Positions 56,554 through 64,000 of a stretch of 64,000 nucleotides of DNA are shown here, piece after piece. Below the pieces are notes generated by a model. It ran no database searches and was not told the DNA's origin. It worked only from the letters and a program-made list of their open reading frames with translations. The stretch's first letter is position 1, and every line of letters begins with the position of its first letter. A program made the translations under genes and the position numbers. This stretch comes from a virus. The DNA is taken from positions 41,633 through 105,632 of the IMG/VR virus record IMGVR_UViG_3300029787_000002; one strand, given 5' to 3'.

Positions 56554-57450
56554 TTAGTAACCGCCAGAGGAACCAGACGAACCAGAGGAACTAGAGGAAC
56601 TAGAACTGCTGCTTGAAGAACTCGAACTAGTGCTAGTTGTATCAGTTGTTGTAGTATCTGTAGTCGTTGTAGTTGTAGCGGTGGTAGATGTAGCAACTCC
56701 AACACTGCCTGCTGTGCTCGCAGTAGAAGAAGGACCGTAATCAAATGTAGTTGCACTCGTTGCTGCCGACTGTCTAGACACACTAGCAGTAACAAAACCT
56801 GCAATATCAATGAACCTCGCTGCAATAGACAGTGGGGTTTTCTTATTGTTTACATCATCTAGTTCTGGATGAGGATCGTATGATACTTGTTCTGTAATCT
56901 CTTCAACCATCATGTCTGCAAGACCTGAGGTTGGGATTATAATTTGTCTCTTTAACTCATTAAGAAAAACTTCATGTTCATAGTTAGTCACAGGGTATCT
57001 AGATTGTTCTGCAGTAAGTGAAGTTCCATCTAACATGGTAGTTCTATAATTTTCTAATACTTCAATACCTTTCTTTGTTACTACAATATCACCATCTAAT
57101 ACTTCATTCGTTTCGTAGTGGTGAATGCCATTAGAATCTGAATACACTGAACTGATGTATTTCTGCAAATCATAATCAGTCTTTGGCCAGTGGTCGTAGA
57201 AGTCTGTGATATTATTTACCATTAGGATGACCCAATCCAAATGTCCATCACCTAGAAAATTTCTTGCAAGACTCTCAGGTGTGTCATTAACTCTGAGTTC
57301 ATATGCCTCAAACTGAGTAACATACTGGTCAAGATCCTCTCTTACCTTTACTCTTCTAAAGATATTTTTGACCAAACGATACTTATAGTTCTCACTATCG
57401 GAGATGCCTTCTCCTACATATACATTTGGAAAATAAGAAAAATAAGACAT
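56554..57450 (-). CDS. 53: Baseplate wedge protein gp53
   Basis: A 298-residue minus-strand protein. The N-terminal 190 residues (MSYFSYFPNVYVGEGISD, VKNIFRRVKVREDLDQYV, GHLDWVILMVNNITDFYDHWP) are typical of gp53, which closes the wedge and lets wedges form the baseplate ring. The rest is a Thr/Ser-rich extension ending in about 20 Ser/Gly and GGY, which T4 gp53 (196 aa) lacks. This tail may be exposed on the virion. It overlaps gp48 by one base (TAATG-type). Confidence 0.9.
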   Translation of the reverse strand: MSYFSYFPNVYVGEGISDSENYKYRLVKNIFRRVKVREDLDQYVTQFEAYELRVNDTPESLARNFLGDGHLDWVILMVNNITDFYDHWPKTDYDLQKYISSVYSDSNGIHHYETNEVLDGDIVVTKKGIEVLENYRTTMLDGTSLTAEQSRYPVTNYEHEVFLNELKRQIIIPTSGLADMMVEEITEQVSYDPHPELDDVNNKKTPLSIAARFIDIAGFVTASVSRQSAATSATTFDYGPSSTASTAGSVGVATSTTATTTTTTDTTTTDTTSTSSSSSSSSSSSSSSSGSSGSSGGY

Positions 57451-58463: not shown

Positions 58464-58881
58464 GAGGTATCAAGGAAAATATCGTCCTAGTTTCCCTCGA
58501 AAGTACAAGGGTGACCCTAACAATATTATTTATAGGTCATCGTGGGAGTACAAATTCATGAAATGGTGTGACGTCACATCATCTGTAACTGAATGGGGTA
58601 GTGAAGAGATTATTATCCCCTATGTTTCCCCTGTCGATGGTAGAAAACACAGGTACTTTCCTGATTTTTATGTAAAGGTTAAGGGTAAGAAGTATCTAGT
58701 TGAAGTTAAACCATTCAGACAGACACTTGAACCCAAAACACAAAAACGACATACCAAACGATATATAAATGAAGTTGTTACCTATGCTGTTAACAGAGCA
58801 AAATGGAAAGCAGCAACTGAATTTTGTAAAGATAACTCTTGGGAGTTTATGTTAATCACCGAAAAAGAACTTAAAGTCTAA
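58462..58881 (+). CDS. 4: Head completion protein gp4
   Basis: A 139-residue protein. GDPNNIIYRSSWEYKFMKWCD and GRKHRYFPDFYVKVKGKKYLVEVKPFRQT show the TnsA/PD-(D/E)XK-type fold of gp4, which seals the filled head before tail joining (with D-x(n)-E-x-K residues in PDFYV...LVEVKP). The length is close to T4 gp4 (150). It overlaps gp54 by one base. Confidence 0.92.
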   Translation: MRYQGKYRPSFPRKYKGDPNNIIYRSSWEYKFMKWCDVTSSVTEWGSEEIIIPYVSPVDGRKHRYFPDFYVKVKGKKYLVEVKPFRQTLEPKTQKRHTKRYINEVVTYAVNRAKWKAATEFCKDNSWEFMLITEKELKV

Positions 58882-59723
58882 TGGCAATCCCCAACAAAGA
58901 AAATGCAAGACCCGTCGCCAGTGTTGGTGGTGGTGTTGGTGCGTTCATGGAGACGATGCTTAAAGACGAGACGATGCGTCCGTCTACTCTTAATAAGTAT
59001 TCAGTCAACTTCGCATCACCTCCTATTCTTTTATCAAAGAGTGTCGGTGGTAAATCTCAGTCAGATAATTTACAACTCGAAACAAAACTTCCTGCAAACT
59101 TACTAGATTACTATGCAAAAAGTGTAAGTTTACCTAGCAGACAGATTACTACTGGTCAGTTTCAACCTCCAGGTGCGTCAGTAAGATACGCAACCAACCA
59201 AGCATTTAGTCAGATGCAGATGGAGTTTCTAGTTCCTGCATCTCAATACACAAGATCTATATTTGAAACATGGGTTAATAGAATCTCTAGAGATTCCAAT
59301 CAGATGGTAGATTTCTATCAAGAGTATTGTTCTCCTAGGGTAAGAGTTTATAAGTGGGAGACACAAACAGCACGAAACGTTCTTACTGGTTGTTGGGAGA
59401 TGCAAAATGTATTCCCATATAACATTGGATCTATTCAGTTGAACAATGAACAGAATCAAATCATGTCATTGACCATGGGATTCTATTACGAGAGATATAG
59501 ATTCTACTCTGCAGATGCATTCTCTGATCCTGGATTGAGAAATCAAATCACTGTTCCTGGTTCGATTGGTGATACTTTTGTTGCTGGTGAAACCAGTGGC
59601 AATACTACAGTTAATACGAGACCACAATACAGCGGACAAACATATACAGTATCAGGTGTTACATACAGAAGTGACACTGGTCAACCCATTTCATTTGATG
59701 GTTCATATACAGGTCCTCGCTAA
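58881..59723 (+). CDS. 54: Baseplate-tail tube initiator gp54
   Basis: A 280-residue protein, near T4 gp54 (320). A tube-like core is visible: LDYYAKSVSLPSRQITTGQFQPPGASVRYATNQ, FSQMQMEFLVPASQYTRSIFETWVNRI and ENVFPYNIGSIQLNN-like strands (QNVFPYNIGSIQLNNEQNQI). It starts the tail tube on top of the baseplate with gp48. The C-terminal 70 residues are a Gly/Ser/Thr-rich extension. The start overlaps gp4. Confidence 0.92.
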   Translation: MAIPNKENARPVASVGGGVGAFMETMLKDETMRPSTLNKYSVNFASPPILLSKSVGGKSQSDNLQLETKLPANLLDYYAKSVSLPSRQITTGQFQPPGASVRYATNQAFSQMQMEFLVPASQYTRSIFETWVNRISRDSNQMVDFYQEYCSPRVRVYKWETQTARNVLTGCWEMQNVFPYNIGSIQLNNEQNQIMSLTMGFYYERYRFYSADAFSDPGLRNQITVPGSIGDTFVAGETSGNTTVNTRPQYSGQTYTVSGVTYRSDTGQPISFDGSYTGPR

Positions 59724-59759: not shown

Positions 59760-60470
59760 ATGGCATTACCTAAGCTAAATGTACCTAAGTACAAATTGAA
59801 ACTACCGTCTGACGGTAGGACTGTGAACTATAGACCTTTCCTTGTTAAAGAAGAAAAGTTATTATTAGTCGCAACTGAGACTGGCAATCAGTCAGAGATC
59901 ATCGATGCAATCAAAGATATTATTTCTTCATGTACAGATCTAGATTCTGTAGATGATTTAGCAACCTTTGACATCGAGTTTTTATTCTTACAGATTAGAA
60001 CTAAGTCTGTTGGTGAAGAAGTTGAAGTATTAGTCAACTGCCCTGACGACGAAGAGACTCAGGTCAAGGTCAAGATTCCTCTTGATCAGATCAAAGTCAA
60101 GAAAACTAGGGGACATAAATCTACTGTTCAACTGACTGATGAGTGCGCTGTTGAAATGGGATATCCAAGTCTGGATATGTTTGTGAAATTAAACTTCACC
60201 GATCAAAACATTGGTGTGGAAGAAGTTTTTCAGATGGCAGCAGCATGTGTGAAAACTATTCAAGATCCTAATCAGGTTTATGAATGTAAAGACGTTCCTC
60301 AGGAAGAGATCCTTGCATTCTTTGATGATATGAATAGTGGGCAGTTTGCAAAGATTCAAGATTTCTTTGACACTATGCCTAAGTTAACTCACACAGTGAA
60401 GGTTGTTAATCCCAAAACTGAAGTAGAAAGTGACGTAGTACTGGAAGGACTAGCAAGTTTTTTCGGTTAG
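59760..60470 (+). CDS. 26: Baseplate hub assembly protein (gp26/gp51-type)
   Basis: A 236-residue protein, MALPKLNVPKYKLKLPSDGRTVNYRPFLVKEEKLLL, the PF12322-type pattern I associate with the T4 baseplate hub proteins (gp26 or gp51; the number is uncertain). It is mixed alpha/beta with an acidic middle and acts as hub assembly factor or chaperone. The last codons AGT TTT TTC GGT TAG contain a slippery heptamer, so part of the product may extend into the next ORF (see the frameshift feature). A late motif precedes it. Confidence 0.85.
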   Translation: MALPKLNVPKYKLKLPSDGRTVNYRPFLVKEEKLLLVATETGNQSEIIDAIKDIISSCTDLDSVDDLATFDIEFLFLQIRTKSVGEEVEVLVNCPDDEETQVKVKIPLDQIKVKKTRGHKSTVQLTDECAVEMGYPSLDMFVKLNFTDQNIGVEEVFQMAAACVKTIQDPNQVYECKDVPQEEILAFFDDMNSGQFAKIQDFFDTMPKLTHTVKVVNPKTEVESDVVLEGLASFFG

Positions 60471-60511
60471 CCCTACTTCATACTAATCTACAATCATACT
60501 ATGAGGGTAAC
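60458..60511 (+). promoter_or_regulatory. Probable -1 frameshift site with downstream stem
   Basis: T TTT TTC (60458-60464) in the zero frame is a classical X XXY YYZ slippery site. The zero-frame stop TAG is two codons further. GTTA-G-CCCT (60466-60474) pairs with AGGGTAAC (60504-60511), one bulge, giving a potential stimulatory stem starting just after the slip. Confidence 0.7.
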
Positions 60512-60646
60512 TTTGCACTGATGCACCACCACAAGTGGAACATCGAACATATAGACAACCTTTTGCCATGGGAAAAGGAAATCTATTGCGACATGCTTAT
60601 CAACCACCTCAAAGCAGAGGAACGTAGAATGAAGGAGAAACAATAG
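60461..60646 (+). CDS. -1 frame extension of the hub assembly protein (gp51-like), probably made by frameshift
   Basis: Open in the -1 frame from the slip site to TAG 60644-60646, about 61 codons. The segment RLALLHTNLQSYYEGNFALM then HHHKWNIEHIDNLLPWEKEI is a compact helical domain like the small partner following hub-assembly or tail-chaperone genes. The first in-frame ATG is at 60521, inside the conserved-looking part, with no ribosome site, and no GTG or TTG lies upstream of it back to the previous stop. The natural product is therefore a fusion to the upstream protein, comparable to the lambda G/GT tail-assembly pair. A separate 41-residue product from ATG 60521 is possible but less likely. 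Confidence 0.7.
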   Translation, partial: FRLALLHTNLQSYYEGNFALMHHHKWNIEHIDNLLPWEKEIYCDMLINHLKAEERRMKEKQ

Positions 60647-60648
60647 CA

Positions 60649-62865
60649 GTGGCAAAAATCGTAGCATACAAGTTTGTAAATCCAGGTGGAAGATCTGTAA
60701 GATCCTCTGGAGGAATTGCTGCGAGAAAACAACTGCTTGCTGTTAATCGTGTTGGTGCTAGTACTCAAAGTCTAGCGACTACATTAAGTGACATTGCAAA
60801 AATCAATACTGCATTTAAAAGAACTGAAACTGAGATAGAGAAAGCGCAGCGTAGAAAGTTACAAAGAGAAAGGGATAATCAAGCAGAGGAGTTGCAAGAA
60901 GGTAAGAGTATTGAAAAGGGAAAGGTCGATGGAGAGTTTAAAAAGGAAATTAAAAAGAAACCTAAAGGTGGTCTTTTAAAAAAAGCATTTGGTTTAAAGA
61001 ATGGTTTCTTTGGATTCTTAGCGGGATTCTTAAGTCCTATTGGTGGTCTGTTGATGAAAATTGCTGCTAAGGCAATCTTCGCCAACATTCTTCTCTACCT
61101 ATCAGACCCAAAGAAAAGTAAAGAGATAAAAGTTTTTCTTGAAAAGACATCGTTTGTCTTCAAGAAACTCTATCAGTTTGGGTCGATGATTGTTGGCAGT
61201 GTCATGGACACTGTTGGGCAAGTTGTTGGGAAGGAATCTACTATTTCAGAGAGACTCATTGGACTTGGTAAGATAATCGGTGCCATCACTGGCATGACAT
61301 TATTGCTTGAAGGTGTTGGGATGGTTAGGGATTTTTTCAACACTGCAGAAGATGTTGCTGATACTGTAGACACTGCTAAGGATGTTAAGCGTGCAATGCG
61401 GACGCAGAAAACAGTCAAAGAGTTAGGAGAACAGTTCGGTAAGGCAGCAGGAAAAAGATATGCAATGCTCATGGCTGATGGTGCTGATGATGCAGCAGAA
61501 CTCTTTGCGAAAACACTGCGAGAGACTGGTGATATTAAACAGGCAAATAAGGCAGTAAAAGCATTTACGCAAACAGCAGGAGCAGCAGCGGATGCTGCAA
61601 AACTAGTACCAAAAAAACCTGGGTTCTTTAGTAGGATGATGACACGAGGTAAAAACCTCGGAAAGCAAGGGTTAGATTTTGGTCTATCACAAGGGAAAAG
61701 ACTTTATTCAGGAATAAAAGGTCTTGATAAACAGATCGGAGATGCTCTAGAAGTTCTGGGTGAGCAGATTGGTAACCAATATGGTAGAGCGAGGCGTGCT
61801 AGTGCAGCAGCACTGGATGGTGCCAAAGGCATGATCAACTCACTCACGGAGAATGTTGGTAAGGGATTCAATAAACTTGGTAAGTTTGCACAAGAGCAGG
61901 TTCTTGGTAGACTTTATAACAAGTTCAAACCATTCTTTGATGGTATTTCTGCTGCAGTCACCCCTATAATAGGTAATTTTAAAAAGACGTTGATGTCAAT
62001 GCCTGGAATGGATAAGGCACCTGGGGTCTTGAAGAAGTTAGGCATCAATGGTATCGGTGACATTGCTAAGGGGGGTTCTAAGATAGGAGCAAGAGCAACG
62101 AGTTTCTTACCCTTGGTTGGTAGTATTGCAAACTTCTTATTTGCTTATCAACGTCTGTCACAGGGTGATACTCTTGGTGCTTTGATTGAAGGCGGTTCGG
62201 GTGCAATCCAGTTTACGGGAGAATTAGCAACAGTAACAGGTGTAGGTGCAGCACCAGGTCTTGCTGCGATTGCAGCATCCTATGCAGGCGATGCTTATAT
62301 GTTCCTTCGTGACTTTATTCCTGAATTTCAACAGACTGAAGAAAAAGTAGTTAACAAAATGGGTCTAGGTGGAATTAAGAAGTTTATTGATCAAGCATTC
62401 TCTCAGGTATTGCCTGGGTTTGGCGCGATTATGAAGGGAGTGACAGGTGATATGAAAGGTGCAACAGAAATGTATAAGGACCAGAGTAACTATGCAGGTC
62501 AAGGTTCAATGACCGATCCAAAAGGTAAAGTTTCAGGTCGTTTTGATATAGAAACTGGCAAAGGATATATTAATGATCGTGAAGTTCCTATGGAAGAGTA
62601 TGAAGCATTTGCAAACATGAGTATGTCAGAGAAGTTAGCGAAGTATAGTAAAGCAGCAGGTGGTTTAGTAGGTTCTATTAGTGCAGTAAAACGTATTGCT
62701 TCCTCTAAACTATCAGAGGAAATATCAATTGCTAAAGAAATGGCAGAAGCAATCGTGGTACCAATGGTAATTCAACAGTTAGCACCTATGCCTATGCTAG
62801 TACCAATAAATAGTGGCGATGGTGACACTGCATCAATCTCTTCAGTAACTTCTAGACGCTTATAA
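60649..62865 (+). CDS. Probable tail tape-measure protein
   Basis: A 738-residue protein with GTG start 60649 (AAGGAG 11-16 bases upstream). It is helical, with charged coiled coils (60-105), hydrophobic segments GFFGFLAGFLSPIGGLLMKI and AIFANILLYL, long Ala/Lys helices (250-420) and a hydrophobic LVPINSG-ending tail. It directly follows the frameshift pair, the classic position of the tape measure. At about 1.5 angstrom per residue it would set a tail of about 110 nm. T4's gp29 is not recognised in the window; this protein is the best candidate. Confidence 0.65.
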   Translation: MAKIVAYKFVNPGGRSVRSSGGIAARKQLLAVNRVGASTQSLATTLSDIAKINTAFKRTETEIEKAQRRKLQRERDNQAEELQEGKSIEKGKVDGEFKKEIKKKPKGGLLKKAFGLKNGFFGFLAGFLSPIGGLLMKIAAKAIFANILLYLSDPKKSKEIKVFLEKTSFVFKKLYQFGSMIVGSVMDTVGQVVGKESTISERLIGLGKIIGAITGMTLLLEGVGMVRDFFNTAEDVADTVDTAKDVKRAMRTQKTVKELGEQFGKAAGKRYAMLMADGADDAAELFAKTLRETGDIKQANKAVKAFTQTAGAAADAAKLVPKKPGFFSRMMTRGKNLGKQGLDFGLSQGKRLYSGIKGLDKQIGDALEVLGEQIGNQYGRARRASAAALDGAKGMINSLTENVGKGFNKLGKFAQEQVLGRLYNKFKPFFDGISAAVTPIIGNFKKTLMSMPGMDKAPGVLKKLGINGIGDIAKGGSKIGARATSFLPLVGSIANFLFAYQRLSQGDTLGALIEGGSGAIQFTGELATVTGVGAAPGLAAIAASYAGDAYMFLRDFIPEFQQTEEKVVNKMGLGGIKKFIDQAFSQVLPGFGAIMKGVTGDMKGATEMYKDQSNYAGQGSMTDPKGKVSGRFDIETGKGYINDREVPMEEYEAFANMSMSEKLAKYSKAAGGLVGSISAVKRIASSKLSEEISIAKEMAEAIVVPMVIQQLAPMPMLVPINSGDGDTASISSVTSRRL

Positions 62866-64000
62866 TGGCAAAAGCAGCAGTACAAAAAGGAATCAAGATT
62901 AACGTTTACAAATTAGTAACCGTTAAAGAACCTGATGCAAGAGAAAAGAAGAAAGATCCTACTGGGTATGAGACTGCAAGAGGTCTGAATGCAACTACTA
63001 AAGCAGTTAATAATTTAGGTTCCACTCTCAATGGTATCAACAAGATTGTTGGTGACCTCAAGCAAATAGAATTAGATCGTCTTGAAACTGCGAATAAAAA
63101 TAAACCCAAGATGGATCCCAAGTATGGGAAAAGTAAGAAAGGTGGTGGTATACTAGGATCACTTGCAAAAGGATTTGTAAAAACTGGTGGTGGATTCTTA
63201 TCAGGTCTATTAGGACTACTCGGTAACCTATTCAAAGCATTTGTAGTTCTTCCTGTTTTGACATGGTTGAGTAAAGAAGAAAATCAACAGAAGGTTGCAG
63301 GTGCTCTAGAAGTATTGGCAAAGTTTGGTAAGTTCATATGGGACTGGGCAAGTTTTGGAGTTACCAATACAATTGATGGACTATATAAGTTACTTAGCGA
63401 CGATTCATCTTGGATGGATCGACTTGTTGGGTTTGGTCAAGCACTTTTAGGCGTTGGATCCATCTTCATCGGTTTAAAGGGTCTAAAATGGTTACTAAAT
63501 CCTGTCAAAGTTGCTAAAGGTATTACAGCAGCAGTCAAAGCATTAGTTAAATTCGTAACGAAAAGAGGAAATCCATTGCGTATTCCAGGTAGAAGAAAAG
63601 GAAGAGCAGCAGGTGGTTTAGTTACCGCTGCTGCTTTAGCATTGCCACAGATGGCACAGGGCGGATGGATATCTGGACCTCAGTCTGGTTATCCTGTATC
63701 ACTTAATGGTGGTAAAAGCGTATCATTTATTGGTCATGGCACAGAGTATGTGTCACAGAAGTCAAGTGGTGGTGCATTTGTTACCCCGTATGATACTCCT
63801 GCAACCCGTAAGAATCCTGGGTTGACTGCTATGAGACAAGCAGAAGCAGCAAGAATGGGATATTCTCAGGGTGGAGAAGTTGAATCTCTAAATCTGACTG
63901 CAAAACAGTTTAGAGACCTAGCATATGGTGTGAGTGGTGAAGCACAACGTAAAACTGATGATGAGTATGGAGTTGCAGCAGCAATCTTAAACAGAGTTTC
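62865..64000 (+). CDS. Tail protein with SleB-like hydrolase domain (3' truncated)
   Basis: An ORF of 378 codons running off the window, starting in a TAATG overlap. The N-terminus is basic; residues 85-180 have hydrophobic helices (GSLAKGFVKTGGGFLSGLLGLLGNLFKAFVV), followed by basic FVTKRGNPLRIPGRRKGRA and a Gly-rich loop (GGWISGPQSGYPVSLNGG...FIGHGTEYV). At its end LAYGVSGEAQRKTDDEYGVAAAILNRV is the start of a SleB/hydrolase_2 (cell-wall hydrolase) domain, with the catalytic Glu in SGEAQ. It is probably a hub- or tape-associated enzyme that opens the peptidoglycan at infection. Confidence 0.75.
   Translation, partial: MAKAAVQKGIKINVYKLVTVKEPDAREKKKDPTGYETARGLNATTKAVNNLGSTLNGINKIVGDLKQIELDRLETANKNKPKMDPKYGKSKKGGGILGSLAKGFVKTGGGFLSGLLGLLGNLFKAFVVLPVLTWLSKEENQQKVAGALEVLAKFGKFIWDWASFGVTNTIDGLYKLLSDDSSWMDRLVGFGQALLGVGSIFIGLKGLKWLLNPVKVAKGITAAVKALVKFVTKRGNPLRIPGRRKGRAAGGLVTAAALALPQMAQGGWISGPQSGYPVSLNGGKSVSFIGHGTEYVSQKSSGGAFVTPYDTPATRKNPGLTAMRQAEAARMGYSQGGEVESLNLTAKQFRDLAYGVSGEAQRKTDDEYGVAAAILNRV

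Follow-up and report, generated by a model that had tools for sequence, protein, structure and literature searches.

The gpG/gpGT tail-assembly proteins of phage lambda and their relatives are reportedly the subject of work by Xu, Hendrix and Duda dating from 2004. The lambda short/long chaperone pair was reviewed in 2016 (PMC5009743), where T4 was named as the exception to G–T frameshifting, and an earlier review from 2010 (PMC3004832) described the T4 proteins gp26 and gp51 as hub-assembly chaperones, of which gp51 is essential and of unknown function. According to the passages that cite it in PMC12846349 and PMC10885494, the study of Vladimirov, Gautam and Davidson (2022, Virology 566:9–15) identified the tail-assembly chaperones TAC-N and TAC-NC of T4-like phages; the former paper credits it with the polyT signals for −1 frameshifting in the TAC-N genes of these phages, and the latter with the finding that in other T4-like phages the short and the fused form have a gene each. 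A tail-assembly chaperone frameshift at GTTTTT has also been described in Vandenendeviridae and Andersonviridae (PMC12846349). Here we describe a locus of a T4-related cyanobacterial virus which, judging from its sequence, very probably encodes two tail-assembly chaperones from one gene via a −1 slip.

A gp26-type gene and its slippery heptamer

The locus lies in the 172,907-base genome of a T4-related marine cyanobacterial virus, which is close to Synechococcus phage metaG-MbCM1 (95.8% identity across the query protein); the 64,000-nucleotide stretch of this genome that was analysed is called the window below. In the family search, the TAC-N gene (Table 1) gave a full-length match to PF12322 (E 8.7e-74), its match to phrog_150 had an E of 1.7e-85, and no other PF12322 gene was found in the whole 172.9-kb genome. 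In the zero frame, the 3′-end of the gene reads GCA AGT TTT TTC GGT TAG, where a single GGT codon (60465–60467) stands between the heptamer T TTT TTC and the stop codon (60468–60470). The positions that the first-pass annotation had assigned to the heptamer, to the end of the −1 frame, and to its first start codon all proved exact.

Table 1. Features of the chaperone locus, with positions counted from the first base of the window
Feature	Position	Strand	Basis
Tail-tube-type protein, upstream neighbour	58881..59723	+	phrog_45 tail tube E 7.6e-49
TAC-N, T4 gp26-type short tail-assembly chaperone, 236 aa, zero frame	59760..60470	+	PF12322, phrog_150
Slippery heptamer T TTT TTC, −1 shift site	60458..60464	+	Sequence; conservation; synonymous constraint
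TAC-C, gp51-type −1 frame extension, 60 aa (RLALLHTNLQSYYEGNF...)	60464..60646	+	phrog_634, pN/pS
First ATG in −1 frame, inside the conserved domain	60521..60523	+	First of ATG/GTG/TTG; ATG in 52/111 relatives
Large downstream protein, GTG start, putative tape-measure slot	60649..62865	+	phrog_790 'endolysin' E 4.7e-160

For comparison, loci were taken from 160 viral contigs and from diverse phage records, and 120 remained after removal of near-identical copies. When viral contigs were scanned with Desulfovibrio and Vibrio queries, no relatives were returned, and a diverse alignment of 15 sequences contained no stretch conserved enough to serve as a scan query. An in-frame T TTT TTN was kept at the same spot in 118 of the 120 non-redundant loci, with a spacing of one codon to the stop in 115 of these 118, and two phages added later, pf16 (T TTT TTT) and Milchi (T TTT TTC), both carry the slip site. 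The locus therefore shows, in zero-frame phase and directly before a stop, the conserved X XXY YYZ heptamer that marks −1 frameshifting. Since there are just five in-frame T TTT TTN motifs per 15,102 codons in the window, the occurrence of this motif at the TAC-N stop is, across the loci compared, far beyond chance.

The nucleotides themselves were also constrained. In a synonymous scan of the TAC-N gene based on 51 independent pairs, codons 233–235 together showed four synonymous differences against 42.5 expected (4, 0, and 0 against 15.6, 12.8, and 14.1 for the individual codons). The most constrained five-codon window of the gene was formed by codons 232–236 (z −6.4), and the other low windows lay mostly near the gene start. 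Conservation of the slip site in relatives and a synonymous scan had both been proposed as checks in the first-pass annotation, and both came out in favour of the site.

The −1 frame downstream of the heptamer

The −1 frame is open from 60434 to 60643 and is closed by a stop codon at 60644–60646. Its translation from the slip is RLALLHTNLQSYYEGNFALMHHHKWNIEHIDNLLPWEKEIYCDMLINHLKAEERRMKEKQ, which gives the predicted long form TAC-NC (TAC-N plus TAC-C) the junction ...SFF-RLAL..., and TAC-C matched phrog_634, 'baseplate hub assembly catalyst', with an E of 4.5e-28. The frame is start-less up to the ATG at 60521, as had been claimed, and the TAC-C residues preceding this ATG include LALLHTNLQSYYEGNF... 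Among 111 relatives, the stretch from the zero-frame stop to +50 had a pN/pS of 0.167 in the −1 frame, with no in-frame stops, against 2.35 and 1.63 in the two other frames; past +50 the value for the −1 frame was 0.118. The first residue past the slip was R in 93 of the 111 relatives and the next one was I, L, or V in all of them. By these substitution patterns, purifying selection acts on the −1 frame immediately past the slip, ahead of any shared start codon, and on sequence evidence this frame is translated directly from the slip site.

No start codon was common to the relatives, in keeping with the earlier expectation: an ATG was present at +2 in 7, at +23 in 31, and at +53 (the ATG of Table 1) in 52 of the 111, thus even the last of these is not a conserved start. 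The −1 ORF of Aeromonas phage G2 has no ATG, GTG, or TTG before +89, and in Desulfovibrio phage 7757 (L091:1718–1885) the conserved TAC-C frame is devoid of any of these codons. The latter phage offers a clean natural test case for the frameshift. In 35 of the 118 loci with the heptamer, a −1-frame stop directly abuts it on the 5′ side, consequently the −1 frame has to be entered at or after the heptamer.

A translated search matched the TAC-C domain in 504 phage records, and among the records listed it usually stood as a distinct 'baseplate hub assembly catalyst', or else a name was given to the upstream gene alone. Most database annotations likewise treat gp51 as a gene of its own, for example in syn9, where its start is placed about 50 bases past the stop, and in Vibrio K567. 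TAC-C would then be expressed either from its own start at ATG 60521 or by re-initiation past the gp26 stop; the ATG that overlaps the stop in 7 of the 111 relatives could start a free TAC-C, and in Vibrio phage 207E48.1 (L094:1690–1720, filed under Ackermannviridae) the heptamer is gone and ATG ATG is found at the junction, which apparently reflects a switch to separate translation. For the locus studied here, we consider an independent gene very improbable, because the relatives share no start and just those 52 have the +53 candidate, the 17 codons ahead of this ATG are already under purifying selection, the frame of phage 7757 contains none of the three start codons, and the synonymous freeze of the heptamer would be left unexplained.

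An ATG at the natural start of the downstream ORF had been named in the first-pass annotation as a sign against frameshifting, and such an ATG does occur in the seven relatives mentioned, yet all of these retain the heptamer, hence the frameshift reading is not refuted. In five loci (L003, L004, L093, L096, and L097), the heptamer is accompanied by an ATG overlapping the chaperone stop (TGATG or TAATG). The KVP40-like Vibrio phages, Stenotrophomonas Mendera, and Rhizobium RHph_I46, which have this arrangement, might use a single mRNA for both the long fusion and an unfused TAC-C and so stand between recoding and separate genes, but we regard this as rather doubtful.

The lack of a shared start, the selection on the −1 frame, the start-less frame of phage 7757, and the abutting stops make a frameshift at the heptamer by far the simplest route to TAC-C, and as the genome has a single PF12322 gene, frameshifting would be the only visible source of the long form. 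The core of the first-pass annotation, a −1 frameshift fusing a gp26-type protein to a start-less gp51-type domain, thus appears well founded, being supported by the heptamer conservation, the synonymous constraint, the −1-frame selection, and the absence of a second gene copy. The sequences show that the slip site exists, that the −1 frame is translated beginning at the slip, and that the fused protein and T4 gp51 are homologous.

Mode of slippage and candidate signals around the heptamer

According to the mechanism that we propose, most ribosomes would terminate at TAG 60468 and produce the short, gp26-type TAC-N of 236 aa. A minority, the slippage and efficiency of which we infer, would move back by one base at U UUU UUC, with both Phe tRNAs re-pairing to UUU UUU, and would continue in the −1 frame to 60646 to yield the TAC-NC fusion of about 295 aa. 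The C-terminal domain of the latter is predicted to be helical and shares homology with the C-terminal part of T4 gp51. If the two forms work as lambda gpG/gpGT do, the tape-measure protein would be coated by numerous copies of the short form, and the few fused copies would recruit tail-tube subunits.

The six Ts could also act through slippage of RNA polymerase, by which a U would be added to or lost from the mRNA instead of the ribosome changing frame. The motif is a T run, and in Methylophilales phage Melnitz-1 (L087:1685–1696) it extends to eight Ts (AGT TTT TTT TAA at the slip site), which makes it the only site for which transcript slippage has to be taken seriously. For the locus in the window, polymerase slippage is very improbable, since the run is just six Ts in nearly all relatives, it keeps a constant phase to the zero frame, and it is mostly followed by C or A as the seventh base, which a tandem two-tRNA slip would predict (the last codon of the heptamer was TTC in 90, TTA in 26, and TTT and TTG in one each of the 118 loci). 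The codon before the TTT of the heptamer was AGT, GAT, AAT, TCT, GCT, CGT, or CAT (Ser, Asp, Asn, Ala, Arg, or His) and ended in T throughout. That T TTT TTC is conserved merely because the protein requires Phe-Phe, a pair that is indeed conserved in the protein, T4 gp26 included, is almost certainly wrong and is refuted by the codon evidence: T4 gp26 spells the pair TTC TTT, in the window only 4 of 32 Phe-Phe cases are spelled TTT TTC, and in 27 relatives the second heptamer codon encodes Leu instead of Phe with TTTTTT left intact.

Ribosomal slippage at the heptamer is therefore preferred, and two further candidate signals were considered around it. The stem GTTA(G)CCCT/AGGGTAAC, which had been put forward as a signal, is present in the window just downstream of the heptamer, but it could not be upheld as such: its fold was no better than that of shuffled sequence (z −0.16), at most four of its eight pairs were formed in 91 of the 111 relatives, and the consensus fold of the relatives did not contain it. 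A conserved stimulatory structure, which is frequent but not obligatory for −1 frameshifting, was not found at this locus. An upstream SD-like GARGGN was also rejected; its E-G codons had 10 synonymous differences against 13.1 expected and 24 against 18.5, that is, they vary freely at synonymous sites, so there is no nucleotide-level constraint on this motif.

Gene neighbourhood and comparison with T4 and lambda

The chaperone gene is preceded by a tail-tube-type gene, as in the V-G-T-H order of lambda, and followed by a large gene in the slot where a tape-measure gene would be expected. The same-slot genes of Vibrio K567 and Prochlorococcus MED4-213 showed weak matches to tape-measure families. 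A search of the whole genome found no gp29-family match, and a phrog_4200 tape-measure match fell in another ORF outside the window, this family also matching control genomes. The neighbouring large tail genes 60649–62865 and 62865–64000 are distantly related to each other, both having matches to phrog_790 and phrog_1200, families that carry the doubtful label 'endolysin'. The pair has the appearance of a tape-measure or hub-like protein duplicated in tandem. On the minus strand, the protein encoded at 56554–57450 has a long C-terminal tail of low complexity that is rich in Ser/Thr (TSTSSSSSSSSSSSSSSS...), an unusual feature in a tail operon.

The predicted fold of TAC-N (pLDDT 86) matched predicted T4-like hub chaperones in the fold search, and its match to the HK97 tail-assembly chaperone (HK97 gp13, 2ob9_B) was weak (E 2.5, probability 0.25, TM by target 0.41). 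The TAC-N fold search of PDB gave no match at E < 0.001 and the sequence search of solved structures gave nothing credible. The predicted structure of TAC-C consists of three helices, and the fold search with this 60-aa domain yielded no significant match. Both the gene position and the predicted short and long forms suggest tail-assembly chaperones of the lambda gpG/gpGT kind, and a pair that would act in the same way is the best reading by this analogy.

T4 gp26 consists of the PF12322 domain only and is homologous to TAC-N (it matched the TAC-N profile with E 5.6e-26), while T4 gp51, in which the PF12322 domain is followed by a C-terminal domain, is homologous to TAC-N plus TAC-C. Searched against a set of 14 sequences, the TAC-C profile matched the C-terminal part of gp51 in five Straboviridae (E 3.7e-12 to 7.8e-06), the match in T4 gp51 covering residues 207–244. 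The locus thus has the features of the T4-like chaperones, a TAC-N homologous to gp26 and a long form sharing its C-terminal domain with gp51. T4 and four other Straboviridae have two paralogous genes, the short gp26 and the fused long gp51, whereas the genome studied here has its one PF12322 gene, and T4 gene 26, which ends with GAG TTC TTT GAG TTA CTA TAA, lacks the heptamer. In an unrooted tree, some rows of which were long, a 99/95 branch separated the gp26 and gp51 sequences, the latter of which formed a single group, from the frameshift-type genes together with 207E48.1, which has lost the heptamer. This topology fits a duplication that may have swapped recoding for one short and one fused gene.

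The start-less 'gp51' of cyanophages would accordingly be the end of a frameshifted chaperone and not a gene of its own, although databases usually annotate two genes or miss it. With T4 gp26 and gp51 as its unfused and fused paralogues, a concrete and testable role, that of short and long tape-measure chaperones, can be proposed for two T4 hub proteins whose function has long been unclear.

Compared with lambda gpG/gpGT, the slippery heptamer differs, being T TTT TTN in the window gene, and homology of TAC-N/TAC-C to lambda gpG/gpT was not seen in the family searches. The frameshift of Vandenendeviridae and Andersonviridae is likewise a −1 shift at a T-rich site in the same place of the tail operon, found in other phage families (PMC12846349). 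The closest system is that of Vladimirov et al. (2022): as that work is represented in the papers citing it, the window locus shares with the T4-like TAC-N/TAC-NC a gp26-type short and a gp51-type long form, and adds a new instance and a larger conservation test. The suggestion of the first-pass annotation that the strategy is common to T4-like phages is borne out, but by the same accounts the frameshift in these phages was already published in 2022, and the locus described here is a well-supported new instance of a usually misannotated gene.
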